DNA from: a virus
Reading direction: 5' to 3' (one strand)
Length of the DNA stretch: 31,773 nt
Virus record (IMG/VR): IMGVR_UViG_3300028840_001126
Location: 1-31,773 of that record
Shown here piece by piece: positions 5,957-15,034 of this stretch. The stretch's first letter is position 1, and each line of letters starts with the position of its first letter. The notes below the pieces were generated by a model, which was not told the origin of the DNA, ran no database searches, and saw only the letters and a list, made by a program, of their open reading frames with translations. The translations under genes were made by a program, and so were the position numbers.

Positions 5957-6454
5957 TTAAGACTCCTGAACCGCTTTTATCTGACTCTCGATGCTAGTAT
6001 CTGGACCAAGGTCCAAGTCTTGCATTGCAATATCAGATACCTTGAAAAACTCCTTGCGAAGGAAAGCCTTTGGGCACTCGCCCTCTGGCACTTGCATCTC
6101 AAAAGTATTCTTTACACGTTCCCTCATGGAATACTCGCCTTCAGCTTTAGTTGATACCTTGAAACTAAACTCAATCTTTGTAAACTCTATTTTACTCATG
6201 TTTATCTCCCTTAATAACCTATAAACCGCTTTTATCTGGCTCTCGATGCTAGATTCTGGCCCAAGGTCCAGGTCTTGCAATGCAATCTCAGAAACCTTGC
6301 AAAATTCCTTGCGGAGGAAAGCTTTTGGACATATGCCTTCTGGCACTTGCATCTCAAAAGTATTCTTTACACGTTCCCTTACTGAATACTCGCCTTCAAC
6401 TTTAGTTGATACCTTGAAACTAAACTCAATCTTTGTAAACTCTATTTTACTCAT
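5957..6454 (-). CDS. Tandemly duplicated hypothetical protein (two near-identical halves)
   Basis: A 165-residue protein made of two copies of a 77-residue unit (residues 1-77 and 86-162) that differ at only eight positions, about 90% identical. Each unit starts MSKIEFTKIEFSF and ends ESQIKAV. The eight-residue linker YRLLREIN is the translated former gene start: its DNA TTATTAAGGGAGATAAAC still holds a ribosome site ahead of the internal ATG at 6199, and it matches the DNA upstream of the first ATG at 6454. Either one fused protein or two products (full length and C-terminal half) may be made. Function is unknown; the unit looks like a small alpha/beta domain. The final three residues (QES) differ from the first copy's continuation. 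A strong terminator follows directly. Confidence 0.8.
   Translation of the reverse strand: MSKIEFTKIEFSFKVSTKVEGEYSVRERVKNTFEMQVPEGICPKAFLRKEFCKVSEIALQDLDLGPESSIESQIKAVYRLLREINMSKIEFTKIEFSFKVSTKAEGEYSMRERVKNTFEMQVPEGECPKAFLRKEFFKVSDIAMQDLDLGPDTSIESQIKAVQES
5969..6199 (-). repeat. Second copy of tandem coding duplication
   Basis: Downstream copy of the 231-base unit; the repeat period is 255 bases counting the 24-base linker. It keeps its own ATG (6199) and an AAGGGAGA ribosome site. Confidence 0.9.
6224..6454 (-). repeat. First copy of tandem coding duplication
   Basis: Upstream copy of the 231-base unit, starting at the ATG at 6454 with AAGGGAGAAAAAC in front. The homology also extends a few bases upstream of each ATG, into the stop region of the 33-codon gene at 6466-6567. 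Confidence 0.9.
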
Positions 6455-8902: not shown

Positions 8903-9130
8903 TCAAGACTCCGAGCCAAAAACCCAGCTTCGCAAGATTCGGACATCATTTGGTGAAAGCTGGTCCAGCGCCTTGTCAATCGTTGCAAGTATCTCATCAC
9001 TGGCCCTTGGCTCGTGCACCTCATAGCAGAAACCATTAGGATTAGGCGCAAGGCCATATGATACTATCTCAACATTGGCGTCTATGCAGCGCTCTAATAG
9101 CTTGTGTACTGTTTTCTGATCTTGGTCCAT
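8903..9130 (-). CDS. Hypothetical protein, 75 residues
   Basis: Not recognised. An acidic helical protein with a central segment GLAPNPNGFCYEVHEP (about 26-41) and a C-terminal helix DVRILRSWVFG. The ATG at 9130 uses the ribosome site AAGGAGAC, which is inside the end of the small gene 9135-9236, so translation is probably coupled. It is the last gene before the AT-rich region and no clear terminator follows it. Confidence 0.7.
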   Translation of the reverse strand: MDQDQKTVHKLLERCIDANVEIVSYGLAPNPNGFCYEVHEPRASDEILATIDKALDQLSPNDVRILRSWVFGSES

Positions 9131-9134
9131 GGTT

Positions 9135-9236
9135 CTAGTCTCCTTGGTTGTATTGGTTACTTGCGCCTAGTATGAGGGCACAGGTTGATAGGCTCGTGAT
9201 TATGTAAAAGTAGAATATTGCATCCATTGGGTTCAT
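9135..9236 (-). CDS. Small membrane protein, 33 residues
   Basis: A short frame from the ATG at 9236, with a strong AGGGAGGA ribosome site, to TAG at 9135-9137. The product has one membrane segment, IFYFYIITSLSTCALIL (residues 7-23), after a short N-terminus MNPMDA and before a polar tail SNQYNQGD. Its start overlaps the end of the zinc-protein gene (9233-9535) by four bases, and its end carries the ribosome site of the 8903-9130 gene. The strong ribosome site and tight packing argue that it is real; function is unknown. Confidence 0.7.
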   Translation of the reverse strand: MNPMDAIFYFYIITSLSTCALILGASNQYNQGD

Positions 9237-9535
9237 TGGTTCCTCCCTATGATTATATCGAGCACGCTTATCCTGCGCTCGGGTTTGGTTTTCGTTGCTT
9301 TCTTAAATCTGAAACTATGCTTGATCTTTGCCTCGGCTTGTATGTACTTGGTCACGATGCTTGGCGCTCGCTCCTTGGCTATGCGTATCTCATCGTCACT
9401 TGAGAAAATACATATCGCACACGATGCCCGTGACACACCCCAATCGTAACAAGGGTGCTTAGGTATATTGCGCTTGTTGGTGACGTCCCAGTCTGTGTTA
9501 GCAATCTCCTTGTGTATAGGTGCTTGTAAGATCAT
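9233..9535 (-). CDS. C-terminal zinc domain of a PAPS-reductase/DndC-like protein, truncated
   Basis: A 100-residue protein that matches only the C-terminal part of phage and plasmid phosphoadenosine-phosphosulfate-reductase-like proteins: HPCYDWGVSRASCAICIFSS (27-46) followed by KERAPSIVTKYIQAEAKI and HSFRFK. Cysteines 29, 39 and 42 and nearby histidines look like metal ligands. Full proteins are roughly 250-300 residues and start with a PP-loop ATPase domain (SGGxDS), which is absent here; no remnant was found in the 600 bases upstream. The start (ATG 9535) has AAAAGGAACTATAC, so this appears to be expressed as a stand-alone domain. It may work with a host or phage partner, or bind metal or nucleic acid; this is inference. 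It is the first gene after the leftward promoter candidate. Confidence 0.7.
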   Translation of the reverse strand: MILQAPIHKEIANTDWDVTNKRNIPKHPCYDWGVSRASCAICIFSSDDEIRIAKERAPSIVTKYIQAEAKIKHSFRFKKATKTKPERRISVLDIIIGRNQ

Positions 9536-9633
9536 GTATAGTTCCTTTTTGTTTGTTTAGTTGTTGCCCTGTGTAGTAGCTAGAATCATGCCAAGGTCCT
9601 TGTGCCCTGTGCTTTAGTACAAGGCGCTTGCAG

Positions 9634-9661
9634 TGTATAACTTATAGGCATCTATTGTAAA
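9634..9661 (-). promoter_or_regulatory. Candidate sigma-70-type promoter for the leftward block
   Basis: On the minus strand TTTACA (9661-9656), a 16-base spacer and TATACA (9639-9634) resemble -35 and -10 boxes, about 100 bases before the first leftward gene. Support is by pattern only. Confidence 0.45.
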
Positions 9662-9702
9662 AAAGGGATAAGGCTCTGGCCCTAGGAAGTAGGAACCTGC
9701 GC

Positions 9703-9743
9703 GCGTGTTCACGCATAATGCGCACGCGTAACGCGCTCGCGCA
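9703..9743. promoter_or_regulatory. GC-rich palindromic island, possible operator
   Basis: Two adjacent inverted repeats: GCGTG-TT-CACGC (9703-9714), and TGCGC-A-CGCG-TAA-CGCG-CTC-GCGCA (9719-9743). They sit about 40-80 bases upstream of the leftward -35 candidate, a place where regulators bind. CG-rich words are rare elsewhere in the window. Confidence 0.4.
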
Positions 9744-9963
9744 CGAAAAAGGCCACCCAGGGCCCAAGAGTTTCTAGGGTGCATGGGCGTATTAGCTCGG
9801 ACCTCTCCCCCAAAACCAATTTCACCAAATAAAATGACGCAAGACACCATTCCCACTAATCCACTCCGCGGACCCGTACCGCGCAAATCTCACTGGCAAC
9901 CCACCCCTCAAACCATGCTAATTCAAACAAAAACGCGCCGCTCAGCTCTTTTCCCTGGCAACC

Positions 9964-10021
9964 CTGGCCCAAGTACCCCTATACTTAAAACAAGCTCTCA
10001 GAGGGCCTCCAGTTTTTTTTT
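9964..10021 (+). terminator. Possible rightward terminator of an unannotated hub transcript
   Basis: CTGGCCC (9964-9970) can pair with GGG...CCAG (10003-10012), enclosing a small AAGTA/TACTT hairpin (9971-9986), and nine Ts follow (10013-10021). The fold is imperfect, with a bulge and long unpaired loop. Confidence 0.3.
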
Positions 10022-10094
10022 CATTGTTTTCTTCGCTGGTACTCGCGCCTCGGTCCTCTGGGAGTGATTATTATTCTCATTTACAAGAAATCGC

Positions 10095-10123
10095 TTGCAA
10101 TCGTCCTTAATCTTGGAATAATA
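10095..10123 (+). promoter_or_regulatory. Candidate promoter for the late block
   Basis: TTGCAA (10095-10100), a 17-base spacer and ATAATA (10118-10123) resemble sigma-70 boxes about 80 bases before the small terminase start. The -10 is imperfect; a TAATAT with a longer spacer overlaps it. Confidence 0.35.
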
Positions 10124-10204: not shown

Positions 10205-10864
10205 TTGGGGGATTCTGAGTTCATAACACTCAATGAAGATGGCGTATTAGTGGCTATAAATTACCACACTGGCGAAACACGCCAACTTGACGCAGCACCC
10301 AATCCAGTTGAAACAACAGAAGACCGTTATATCAAGGTTAAGAACGAAGAAGGCGAGCTTGTTTGGATTCCGCGCACCGCAAGCAGCGAAGATATGCGTA
10401 AATTGCAAGGCAAGCGCTTCTCATTCCCTTATTCTCCATTGCTGGCGGACCGTATTTGCGAGATGGTGACCGAGGGAAAGACAATCACGGACATATGCAA
10501 GATGAACAATTACCCGTCTTATTCACAGTTATGCAAGTGGCGCAAGGAATTCCCAGAGTTCCAGGAAGCTTTGAAGCAAGCACGAGAAGACAGGGCCGAG
10601 ATAATGTTTGATAAGGCCATACAAGCAGTAGAGAGCGCTGGTACAGATCGAGACGAGATAAACCTGGCAAAAGCCAAAGCCGATATTTACAAGACGGCGG
10701 CAAAAGTTTACAACCCGAAAGACTATGGTGACAAGCAACAGATTGATGCTAAAGTTGCAAGCACGTCCTTTGTACTGGAAACAGGGATACGTCGTCCAGG
10801 AGACGAGGGATATTTTACAGATGAAACAGCTAAGATAAGAGAGGTAAATAATGGAGATGTTTGA
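10205..10864 (+). CDS. Terminase small subunit (putative)
   Basis: A 219-residue protein that opens the late block. The middle part has the small-terminase pattern: a helix LLADRICEMVTEGKTITDIC (about 80-99), a turn NNYPSYSQLCKWRKEFPEF (102-120) as DNA-binding HTH, then a long charged helix QALKQAREDRAEIMFDKAI-like region, probably for oligomerisation. Small terminases recognise phage DNA and stimulate the large subunit. The first 75 residues are a separate polar domain. The start is a TTG at 10205, six bases after GGAG; no ATG fits. The position directly before the large terminase supports the call, with only two genes between. The last bases overlap the start of the next gene by 14. Confidence 0.8.
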   Translation: MGDSEFITLNEDGVLVAINYHTGETRQLDAAPNPVETTEDRYIKVKNEEGELVWIPRTASSEDMRKLQGKRFSFPYSPLLADRICEMVTEGKTITDICKMNNYPSYSQLCKWRKEFPEFQEALKQAREDRAEIMFDKAIQAVESAGTDRDEINLAKAKADIYKTAAKVYNPKDYGDKQQIDAKVASTSFVLETGIRRPGDEGYFTDETAKIREVNNGDV

Positions 10865-11078: not shown

Positions 11079-11107
11079 TTGACCCATCGTATATGAGCAT
11101 GTATAAA
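11079..11107 (+). promoter_or_regulatory. Good sigma-70-type promoter before the HNH gene
   Basis: TTGACC (11079-11084), a 17-base spacer and TATAAA (11102-11107) match both boxes at five of six positions with optimal spacing. It starts four bases after the stop codon of the previous gene and would drive the HNH gene and the large terminase. Confidence 0.55.
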
Positions 11108-11127
11108 TGCACATCGACGGAGGAACA

Positions 11128-11610
11128 ATGGCTAGGAAAAATACAGTAGAAGATTTTCATAAGAAGTACACGAAGAAAAGAAATGGTTGCTGGGAATGGC
11201 AAGCAGCGAAAAATAGAAAGGGATATGGGCAGTTTAGTTATTTAGGTAAGTTATATATAGCCCATAGGTTCCTGCTACAAATAGAAGGAAAGATACCAGA
11301 TGGATACTGTGTATTGCATAGTTGTGATAATCCTAGTTGTGTTAACCCTAAACATTTGTCGATAGGGACTAACCAGGATAATGTTGATGACAAAATGGCT
11401 AAAAGAAGAGATAAGAAGAACACAGTAACACATTGCAAGCATGGGCACGAGTTTACTGAAGAGAATACAAGAATTAGAAAGTCTGATAATTCCAGACAAT
11501 GTAAAACCTGCGAACAACAACGATGCAAGGATTACTACTGGAACAGAGGCGGCAAAGCCAAGAGACAGGCATACGATAAACAAAGAAGATCGTTGGAAGG
11601 AGGTAAGTGA
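11128..11610 (+). CDS. Free-standing HNH homing endonuclease
   Basis: A 160-residue protein starting at the ATG at 11128, chosen over an in-frame ATG at 11107 because CGGAGGAAC lies just before it. It carries the HNH_3-type core: CWEWQ (about 21-25), GYGQF and AHRFLLQ, then VLHSCDNPSCVNPKHLSIGT (about 63-82) with the catalytic His and zinc-like Cys ligands, followed by DNxDD. A second Cys/His cluster (CKHGHEF, then CKTCEQQRC) lies in the C-terminal part, typical of phage HNH endonucleases. Such enzymes cut related phage genomes near their own gene and spread by repair. It sits next to the large terminase gene, whose ATG overlaps the HNH stop (TGATG) and whose ribosome site is within the HNH end. 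It has its own promoter candidate. Confidence 0.9.
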   Translation: MARKNTVEDFHKKYTKKRNGCWEWQAAKNRKGYGQFSYLGKLYIAHRFLLQIEGKIPDGYCVLHSCDNPSCVNPKHLSIGTNQDNVDDKMAKRRDKKNTVTHCKHGHEFTEENTRIRKSDNSRQCKTCEQQRCKDYYWNRGGKAKRQAYDKQRRSLEGGK

Positions 11611-12942
11611 TGACATCAAAGATAATCTATACAGGTTATTATCCAAGAGCGCACCAAGAAGCTCTACACATTGCGCTTAGGCGTTTCAATGTGATTGTTG
11701 CTCATCGCCGCTGACCGCTTTGGGAAAACGGTTTTTGCGATTAATGAAATGGTAGACCAAGGTGTGCGGTGCAAGCTTCGCAATCCTCAGTATGCGTACC
11801 TTGCGCCTACATACGGGCAAGCAAAGAGGGTTGCTTGGCAGATAATGAAAGATGCTGTTAGAGGAATCCCTGGCGTTACAATAAATGAATCAGAACTTAG
11901 AGTAGATATACAAAGAGAGCATGATAGGATTCGGTTTATGTTACTCGGCGCTGAGAATCCTGATACGCTTGCAGGTCTATACCTCGATGGAGTTATACTC
12001 GATGAGTTTGGGATTATGTCAGGAAGTGTCTGGGGAACGATTATTAGACCGATGCTTTCAGATAGAAAGGGCTGGGCTATATTTATAGGTACACCAAGGG
12101 GAGCTAACGCTTTCCAGAAGATGTACTTATTTGCTAAAGAGGCTATGAAGAAAGCTGGTTCTGAGTGGTTTGCAGCTATGTATAAAGCTTCTGAGACGGG
12201 GATTGTGCCTAAATCAGAGCTAGAAGCGGCTCGTTCCACGATGACCGAGGATGAATATAACCAGGAGTTTTTATGTGATTTCGGGGCAGCGCTTGCAGGT
12301 GCGTACTATAAAAGACAATTTATTAGAGTTAATAAGGAAAACCGTATTACTCGTGTACCATATGAGTCTGGTTATCCCGTTGATATTTCTTTTGACCTTG
12401 GCATTGACGATTCCACAGCGGTTTGGTTTATACAAACAATCGGAAGAGAAAGAAGGGTTATTGACTACTATGAGTGCTCTGGGAAAGGCTTTGACGAGAT
12501 TGTGCCGGAGATTCATGAAAAAGGGTACATGTTAAGATTTGCTTATCTGCCTCATGATGTGATGGTGAGATCCCTGGAAACTAAGAAGACAAGACTTGAA
12601 ACATTGAAAAAGCTAAACCTTGTACCTAACAGGCATAACTATATCGTTGTGAAACGAAGTTCTGTTGAAGATGGGATTAACGAGGTTAGGAATATCTTTA
12701 GTACATTCTGGTTTGATGAACACAAATGTAGTTACGGAATAGCTTGCCTGCAAGCATATGAACGTGTGTTCGATGCTAAAGAGGGAGTGTTTAAAGGTAG
12801 GCCAAGGCACAATTGGGCTTCACATGGCGCTGATAGTATGAGAACATATGCAATGGGTCTTATCTCAGAGGAAGAGATAGAAGGCAGGGATTTTCTGCCA
12901 GACCAATTAGAAACTGACTACGATGTATTCGGAGGAATGTGA
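11610..12942 (+). CDS. terL: Terminase large subunit, interrupted by 7 bases in the Walker A motif
   Basis: The packaging ATPase-nuclease. From the ATG at 11610, behind an ideal AAGGAGGT site, 34 codons encode a normal N-terminus (IYTGYYPRAHQEALHIAL with the adenine motif, then NVIVAHRR) and hit TGA at 11712. Seven bases later (from 11719) another frame continues with FGKTVFAINEMV, completing HRRFGKT. It then has Walker B VILDEFG, motif III GTPRGANAF, nuclease SFDLGIDDST and HDVM, and the HGADSMRTY end. Removing the seven bases 11712-11718 gives 441 residues, a normal length. Translating only from the TTG at 11695 gives 415 residues but loses the adenine motif and the RR before FGKT. So the gene is either recoded by hopping or frameshift, broken, or misassembled. 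The TGA stop overlaps the next ATG. Confidence 0.9.
11703..11727 (+). other. Candidate translational bypass (7-base hop) site in terL
   Basis: Codons CAT CGC CGC (11703-11711) are followed by TGA (11712-11714), C, a second CGC (11716-11718) and TTT GGG AAA. If peptidyl-tRNA-Arg left the CGC at 11709 and landed on the CGC at 11716, the product would be exactly HRR-FGK with no added or lost residue. Matched take-off and landing codons with a stop just after take-off are the hallmark of T4 gene 60 bypassing. Confidence 0.45.
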
Positions 12943-13405: not shown

Positions 13406-15034
13406 ATGGCTATGAAGATGACCCCTGAGCAAATTATTCAAATGATGCAGACGTTAAAGTCTGAAAGATCAGTGTGGGAAACTCACTGGCAAGACTTAAC
13501 TGATATGATGTTACCTAGAAAGAATGACATTATCCGTACTGATGAAGTTAAGGGAAGAAAAAAGGGTATCGAACTTTACGATAACACCGCGATGAACTCG
13601 GCTGAGCTGCTTGCAGGTGCATTACATGGTTTATTAACTAACCCTTCCCAGCAGTGGTTTGAACTAACGACTGGTAATGAAAATCTAGATGCCAACGATG
13701 ATGTGCGTATTTACTTGCAAGGCTTAACAAAGCGTATGCATAACATTCTAAATAACTCCAACTTCCAAACAGAAGTTCACGAAGTGTACTTAGATGAAGT
13801 GGTACTTGGTACTGCTTTCATGCACATGGATGAAGACGATGAAACAGTTGTTAGGTTTCATGCCAATCACATTGCCGAGATGTTTGCGGTTGAAGGAAAC
13901 AAGGGATTCATTGACGAGGTTTATAGAAAGTTCAAGTGGACTGCTAGAAAGCTGGTACAAGAGTTTGCTCCTAACGATGCTGAAGATTTAGAGAAGGTTG
14001 AAGAGAAGCTAGGTAGAAGTGTTGCAAGGGCTTTTGAAAAGGGTAAGAATGATAAGTTCATTGTTTACCACGCTGTTTACAAGAGTGACTTCAGAGAGAA
14101 AGCTAAACAACCATATACTTCCCAGTACATTTTAGAGCTGGAGAAGAAAGAAATTCATGTGGGTGGTTTTAGAACTTTCCCTTATATGGTTCCACGCTGG
14201 ACTAAAGCAACTGGTGAAACATACGGTAGAAGCCCTGGAATGAACGCTTTACCTGAAGCTAAGACGTTAAACGCGATGTCGCTTGCGGTATTGAAAGGCG
14301 CTCAAAAAACAGTAGATCCTCCATTGCAAGCACCGGATGACGGATTTGTTAGACCTAAAAGAACAACTCCAGGGGCTATCTTGTACTACAGAGCTGGTAC
14401 TAATGATCGTATTCAGCCTGTCTTTAACGACACACGTTTAGACATTGGTGTGGAAATAACAAGAGATCGTCAATTTAGAATTAGAGAATCTTTCTTTGTA
14501 GATCAACTACAGTTAAGAGAAGGTCCACAGATGACGGCAACTGAGGTTAACCGTAGAACTGAGGAGCGTATGCGTTTACTTGGTCCTATGCTAGGCCGCC
14601 AACAATCAGAGTTCTTGGCACCATTAATTGAAAGACTATTCGATATTATGGTTAAGAAAGATTTAATCGGAGAGCCACCAGAGTTATTAAGAGGTGCTGA
14701 CCTTGTTCCTAAATACTCGTCTACTATTGCAAGAGCGCAGAGAGTCGATGAGGGTAACAATACTCTTAGAGCTTTCCAAGCAAGTGCCCCGTTCTTAGAG
14801 CAGAGTCCTCAAGCGTTTGATATTATCGACGTTGAGAAGGTTGTACGTGAGAACTGGATAAACTACGGTGCGAGCCAAACTGTTCTTCGAAGAAAAGAAG
14901 AGATAGAGGCAATCAGGGAATCTCGTGCCCAAGCGCAGCAAGAGGCTAGAGAAAGACAACAAGGTCTTGACAATGCCGAGGCTGTGCAGAAAATGAGTCC
15001 TGCAATTCAGCAAGCACAACAAGCGGAGTCGTAA
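13406..15034 (+). CDS. Portal (head-to-tail connector) protein, T7 gp8 family
   Basis: A 542-residue protein with the length (T7 gp8 is 535-536) and hallmarks of the podovirus head-tail connector: the N-terminal helix with WETHWQDLTDMMLPRKND (about 24-41), LYDNTAMNSAELLAGALHGLLTNP (about 56-79), WFELTTG, the YLDEVVLGTAFM strand (about 127-138), TYGRSPGMNALPEAKTLN (about 271-288) and LREGPQMTATEVNRRTEERM (about 372-391). The C-terminal end is Gln/Glu-rich. Twelve copies form the ring through which DNA enters and leaves the head, and the tail tube proteins attach to it. The ATG at 13406 follows TTAGGAGTGTAGCT. Its TAA overlaps the next ATG (TAATG). Confidence 0.95.
   Translation: MAMKMTPEQIIQMMQTLKSERSVWETHWQDLTDMMLPRKNDIIRTDEVKGRKKGIELYDNTAMNSAELLAGALHGLLTNPSQQWFELTTGNENLDANDDVRIYLQGLTKRMHNILNNSNFQTEVHEVYLDEVVLGTAFMHMDEDDETVVRFHANHIAEMFAVEGNKGFIDEVYRKFKWTARKLVQEFAPNDAEDLEKVEEKLGRSVARAFEKGKNDKFIVYHAVYKSDFREKAKQPYTSQYILELEKKEIHVGGFRTFPYMVPRWTKATGETYGRSPGMNALPEAKTLNAMSLAVLKGAQKTVDPPLQAPDDGFVRPKRTTPGAILYYRAGTNDRIQPVFNDTRLDIGVEITRDRQFRIRESFFVDQLQLREGPQMTATEVNRRTEERMRLLGPMLGRQQSEFLAPLIERLFDIMVKKDLIGEPPELLRGADLVPKYSSTIARAQRVDEGNNTLRAFQASAPFLEQSPQAFDIIDVEKVVRENWINYGASQTVLRRKEEIEAIRESRAQAQQEARERQQGLDNAEAVQKMSPAIQQAQQAES

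Follow-up and report, generated by a model that had tools for sequence, protein, structure and literature searches.

The terL gene of this virus is interrupted inside the P-loop (Walker A motif) by seven surplus bases that begin with a stop codon, and it lies directly downstream of a homing-type HNH endonuclease gene. Stop-bearing inserts of 4-9 nt recur at the same codon in three further lineages, they are linked to the HNH gene, they have several origins, and both parts of the interrupted gene are conserved. From these observations we infer cleavage at the site, protection, co-mobility and ribosomal bypass. We give an even chance to the explanation as a whole, namely that the P-loop insert protects terL against the HNH enzyme and is bypassed at a low rate by ribosomes. 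The statement that such inserts are recurrent minimal bypassed elements, which evolved with at least three origins at the cut site of the neighbouring HNH enzyme and travel with its gene, we put just short of evenly balanced.

The window, by which we mean the whole 31,773-nucleotide stretch analysed (virus record IMGVR_UViG_3300028840_001126), contains a podoviral late module; pelagiphage HTVC010P and phages like it are relatives, at 39-43% TerL identity. From terS the module runs through a small ORF, the HNH_3 endonuclease gene, terL and a second small ORF to portal, with these features.

10205-10864, plus strand: small terminase, Sf6-like (Pfam Sf6_terminase, E 1.2e-23).
11107-11610, plus strand: HNH_3 (homing-type) endonuclease gene (Pfam HNH_3, E 2.7e-8; PHROG HNH endonuclease, E 1e-39).
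11597-11604, plus strand: strong Shine-Dalgarno sequence AAGGAGGT of terL, a perfect site within the 3' end of the HNH gene.
11610-11714, plus strand: terL 5' part, 34 codons with a Q-motif-like segment and strand 1, HRR and TGA; homologous to the N-termini of intact TerLs.
11695-11697, plus strand: candidate TTG restart in the +1 frame, which would yield MLLIAADRFGKT...; poor Shine-Dalgarno.
11712-11718, plus strand: 7-nt insert TGACCGC at the P-loop, absent from 132 intact TerLs and at the position of the L085, L088 and L543 inserts.
11719-12942, plus strand: terL 3' part, 407 codons with FGKT (the end of Walker A), Walker B and the nuclease domain; otherwise undisrupted.
13406-15034, plus strand: portal or head-tail connector (Pfam Head-tail_con, E 9e-125).

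Elsewhere in the window, a minus-strand ORF (5957-6454) holds two tandem near-identical copies of a protein of about 80 residues (MSKIEFTKIEFSFKVSTK...), a recent internal duplication. The G+C-rich region at 9000-10100 (48%) lies between divergent modules where GC skew switches sign, and is a possible origin, promoter or packaging region.

Reading of terL starts at the ATG at 11610 and runs for 34 codons ending in HRR (CAT CGC CGC, 11703-11711) before the TGA at 11712-11714. FGKT (TTT GGG AAA ACG) picks up from 11719 in the +1 frame, leaving the seven bases TGACCGC between HRR and FGKT, and the codons at 11709-11711 and 11716-11718 are both CGC. The original prediction had given these coordinates, the gap and the codon pair exactly, as direct reading of the sequence confirmed. 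It had also described a strong ribosome site and a homing-type endonuclease gene abutting upstream, and both hold: the HNH stop codon shares one base with the terL ATG (TGATG), and the anti-Shine-Dalgarno duplex, at -13.1 kcal/mol, is in about the top 1.5-2% against 131 intact relatives. The window has a single occurrence of the 12-mer CCGCTGACCGCT (expectation 0.00) and no second copy of terL. The 3' part is 40-68% identical to TerL of other phages. The nearest solved homologue is 4ZNI, which we take to be TerL of phage P74-26; its Walker A sequence GRQSGKS aligns with HRRFGKT of the window, and the stop therefore falls inside the P-loop.

Searches of related phages, as had been suggested, brought in three more lineages, each with a different stop-bearing insert in the same arginine codon of the Walker A motif. 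L085/L086 (TerL 67% identical to the window) reads CAT CGG CGT TAG C TTC GGT, with four surplus bases, TAGC. L088 (42% identical) reads CAC CGG CGA AGG TGA TTC GGA, with six, AGGTGA. L543 reads CAC CGA CGC TGA CCT CGT TTC GGA, with nine, TGACCTCGT. The L085, L086 and L088 loci were reached by searching with the window's HNH protein. L543 was found, among the matches listed, by a DNA-pattern scan blind to HNH, and its HNH gene, 35% identical to that of the window, also lies directly upstream of terL, so that all four interrupted lineages share this arrangement. A scan for inserts of exactly 7 nt returned 74 loci, with TerL only in the window's own lineage. Variable-gap pattern scans gave at least 120 matches and further interrupted cases may exist among them. 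An HNH-alignment scan of the genome collection found 11 distant HNH genes, with no interrupted terL seen among them, and phage records searched with an HNH and TerL chimera included none listed as matching both parts.

The original prediction had named an assembly error as an alternative, and all the sources are indeed metagenomic, with no isolate carrying the insert. However, contig IMGVR_UViG_3300017963_000774, from a separate assembly, has the same seven bases; of 7455 aligned bases, six differ between it and the window, all outside the insert. A one-off assembly or sequencing error is therefore excluded. Three of the six differences lie within 8 bases of each other in the portal gene (window 13675-13682). 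L085 and L086 are identical over 6.9 kb and come from two samples. With these independent contigs, and with different inserts at the same codon in three further lineages, assembly error is ruled out as the origin of the inserts, and we give almost no credence to an artefact of any kind. As six other sites changed while the insert was kept, the allele has been inherited or transmitted over that time, and such an allele could not persist in a phage without any source of TerL.

As a control set we tabulated 135 distinct TerLs from homology scans. No HNH gene lies nearby in 129 of them, every one intact, and 110 of these had at least 800 bp of upstream sequence. Homologues of the window's HNH gene adjoin terL upstream in L085, L087, L088 and L543, and the carriers with HNH directly upstream in the window's TerL family are thus the four interrupted lineages and one intact one, L087. 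The target was altered in four of the five carriers, against none of the 110 HNH-less TerLs with at least 800 bp upstream. The association of HNH with interruption gave a Fisher p of 7e-7 with the window, which was selected for being interrupted, and 2e-5 without it; adding L143 and L089 as extra intact carriers and dropping the window gave 8e-5. The likeness to the homing-linked insert of T4 gene 60 and mobA, drawn in the original prediction, is borne out by this association at one and the same codon. Homing linkage of the terL interruptions is, from these comparisons, very likely.

L087 is a natural counter-example: its terL (L087:1542-3334) is intact despite an HNH gene directly upstream, and has an apparent TTG or GTG start that overlaps the HNH gene. 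A related HNH gene (50% identical) lies between terS and terL of a different TerL family in L089 (490-2576), where the P-loop is intact (RASHSLGKS). Judging by the window and L089, this HNH group seems to land repeatedly at the terS/terL junction. The very distant TerL of L143 is likewise intact with an HNH gene nearby.

On the TerL tree the window and L085 form a sister clade (100). The sister of L088 is L322 (100) and the nearest relative of L543 is L261 (80), both of them intact and HNH-less, so that the inserts have at least three origins. The HNH gene itself is patchy among close relatives, being present in L088 and missing from L322 at a TerL identity of 81%. This patchiness, typical of mobile genes, argues against the suggestion that the HNH protein is a packaging nuclease like HK97 gp74, and not a homing enzyme, with the stop limiting TerL dosage by way of programmed recoding. 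In some phages, HNH genes adjacent to terminases are known to belong to the packaging machinery (see the discussion in PMC10448857), and strong terL ribosome sites would suit such a limit, but a dosage throttle needs no stop at the identical codon every time, and we consider this reading highly improbable.

All four inserts can be placed within the second arginine codon, at CG^N, as CTGACCG (an equal alternative placement in the window, containing UGA-C and the second CGC), TTAG, AAGGTG and CTGACCTCG. Variable content at a fixed position is what one would expect if a single site were cut and then repaired imprecisely; going by this pattern, the insert site is very probably the HNH cleavage site. 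The insert would then be a protective mark that is inherited together with the HNH gene. Placement inside the arginine codon also leaves one or two ancestral letters in front of FGKT, so that as many as two letters of a landing triplet need no explanation of their own. The matched codons, which had been put forward as the telling feature, are therefore largely a by-product and weak evidence, and we dropped them as proof of bypass. The codon preceding FGKT is CGC in the window, CGT in L543, AGC in L085 and TGA in L088, and encodes arginine in only two. Each insert carries an in-frame stop, in the first codon in the window, L085 and L543 and in the second in L088. The chance of a stop in all four is 1e-4, or 1e-3 without the window, in a test conceived after seeing the data. 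The L088 and L543 inserts are multiples of three and read in frame across the stop, so there the stop is not due to frame loss.

A break-and-repair origin could instead have left terL dead. In this main rival to bypass, which we think rather unlikely, the inserts are end-joining scars of HNH cutting, TerL comes from co-infecting intact phages, and the stops are retained, as TerL made at full length with a defective P-loop would poison the motor. The fixed position of the insert, its variable sequence and length and the adjacent HNH gene all fit this account, and the 5-bp repeat CCGCT flanking GA in the window resembles a fill-in scar. It has to accommodate, however, an allele that was kept while six SNPs arose, the identity of L085 and L086 in two samples, and an obligate helper in each of at least three lineages.

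The genes themselves also speak against loss of function: the four interrupted terLs have no other disruption and both pieces are conserved. End branches on the TerL tree show no acceleration (L088 0.11 against 0.15 for its intact sister L322; window 0.28, L085 0.33). Between the window and L085, dN is 0.30 for the 5' part and 0.28 for the 3' part, and between L088 and L322 it is 0.21 and 0.12, none of which lies outside what intact pairs show. In the interrupted-pair comparisons dS has reached saturation or is close to it, and dN/dS alone therefore cannot date the inserts. Both parts of terL have been under selection since the ancestor of the window and L085 if that ancestor was already interrupted; their differing inserts leave either case. 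In strength, the terL ribosome sites of the four interrupted lineages rank among the top 2-7% of relatives (p 0.0009, again a test conceived after seeing the data), as would be expected if few ribosomes pass the insert, though the HNH gene may simply bring along a strong terL ribosome site.

The explanation we prefer joins homing to a ribosomal hop. A free-standing HNH homing endonuclease gene would have entered the genome directly upstream of terL, its likely target being the conserved P-loop DNA (HRR/FGKT) about 100 bp downstream of the HNH gene. An insert of 4-9 nt at that site would destroy the target and shield the carrier, and break repair would carry insert and HNH gene jointly into uncut relatives. 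The insert would halt standard reading of terL and a minority of ribosomes would hop over it: with a slow stop codon in the A site, peptidyl-tRNA-Arg would leave its CGN codon, re-pair with the triplet immediately ahead of FGKT, whether the match is full or partial, and so restore an unchanged HRRFGKT. The packaging motor is needed in few copies, so TerL synthesis of low efficiency may suffice, and a low hop rate could be enough given the very strong ribosome site and small TerL requirement. An insert at the cut site survives only if ribosomes can skip it, and the repair-scar and bypass readings are compatible.

The predicted hop product is HRRFGKT in every interrupted lineage, whatever the frame. 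At the landing triplet the window would pair fully (CGC/CGC), and L543 would do so through wobble (CGC/CGT), the same tRNA being expected to read both codons. For AGC in L085 and UGA in L088, two letters of the three would pair, and L088 could add a first-position G-U. RNA folding at the four loci revealed no unusual structure or take-off hairpin at the insert (z 0.04, -0.89, -0.51, 0.36), which suggests bypass of low efficiency. Rfam had no match in the window to a self-splicing intron or other known RNA, there is no intein, and the inserts are only 4-9 nt long; a group I or II intron at the terL site was rejected on the same Rfam result.

Other routes to TerL would need no hop. +1 frameshifting in the window and L085, or stop readthrough in L088 and L543, would add one to three residues to the P-loop. 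UGA-C is a poor terminator, which counts in favour of this reading, as does the frame being kept across the stop in L088 and L543. Against it, separate lineages would require separate recoding modes, a +1 slip of tRNA-Arg from CGC or CGT to GCU or GUU would be poorly paired, and no suppressor tRNA was found in the window or the compared loci. RR stands directly before xGK[TS] in 132 of 132 intact TerLs with no extra residue between them, and added residues are unlikely to work. We regard frameshifting or readthrough as unlikely.

TerL might also be made as two polypeptides, the 34-residue piece and an overlapping, coupled piece restarted at TTG 11695. TTG codons lie just before the stop in both the window and L085, and split genes occur beside homing endonucleases in other phages, for example Aeh1 nrdA (PMC2988022). 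The split would cut through the P-loop, however, the restarted peptides would lose the conserved HRR to other residues, and TTG restart fails as a general explanation in L088 and L543, which have no P-loop-keeping start codon, that is, none after the stop and before FGKT in its frame. Two polypeptides seem to us distinctly unlikely. Among single routes to TerL that would serve all four lineages, a low-level stop-hop is the best, and it has about even odds on this evidence.

The closest known parallel is T4 gene 60 with mobA (PMC5009743). In both cases an insert breaks the frame of an essential gene and has an HNH homing gene next to it, and a non-coding gap in a conserved gene is missing from relatives (here 132 intact TerLs against four interrupted lineages). 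A stop directly follows the take-off codon in the window, L085 and L543, and one codon later in L088, and take-off and landing codons match in the window. The gene 60 insert has been proposed to protect against cleavage (PMC5009743). The gap is 50 nt in T4, however, and 4-9 nt here; T4 has a take-off hairpin, which the four terL loci lack; and the landing match is imperfect in L085 and L088. The terL inserts have several independent origins, the gene encodes TerL and not a topoisomerase, and bypass is here a prediction.

In synthetic E. coli constructs, stop-hops between matched codons around a stop decode a short stretch as one amino acid (PMC5009743). CGC-UGAC-CGC in the window and CGC-UGACCU-CGU in L543 are similar, though in a natural essential gene. 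Free-standing HNH homing, whether intronless or collaborative, likewise involves an HNH catalytic domain and a gene adjoining its presumed target, here terL. In the collaborative homing of ICP1, a T5orf172 endonuclease gene also lies beside and not within the terL insert (PMC10448857); that insert is a splicing intron, whereas ours are 4-9 nt, with no intron detected by Rfam in the window. Inteins in the TerL P-loop of mycobacteriophages (PMC5050341) also make the Walker A motif a homing target, but they splice as protein and in frame, whereas the window's terL has a stop and no intein. The terminase gene of Streptomyces phage Hau3 has been put forward as a candidate for bypass (PMC5009743), which is thought to depend on a UUA codon and is not tied to a stop-bearing insert or a homing endonuclease. 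Our literature search, which took in few subscription papers, turned up no description of HNH-linked, stop-bearing micro-inserts in terL.

To our knowledge, hardly any natural bypass other than that of T4 gene 60 has so far been demonstrated, apart from those in yeast mitochondria. In terL, the interruptions strike a single conserved codon of an essential motor gene again and again, always beside an HNH homing gene and with close intact genes to compare. If our explanation is right, small inserts and simple reporters would suffice for a direct test of the idea that homing protection creates bypass, an idea that bears on the origin of such gaps. Annotation pipelines would be overlooking functional terL genes that appear broken, and these phages would be paying for protection from homing with ribosome hopping.
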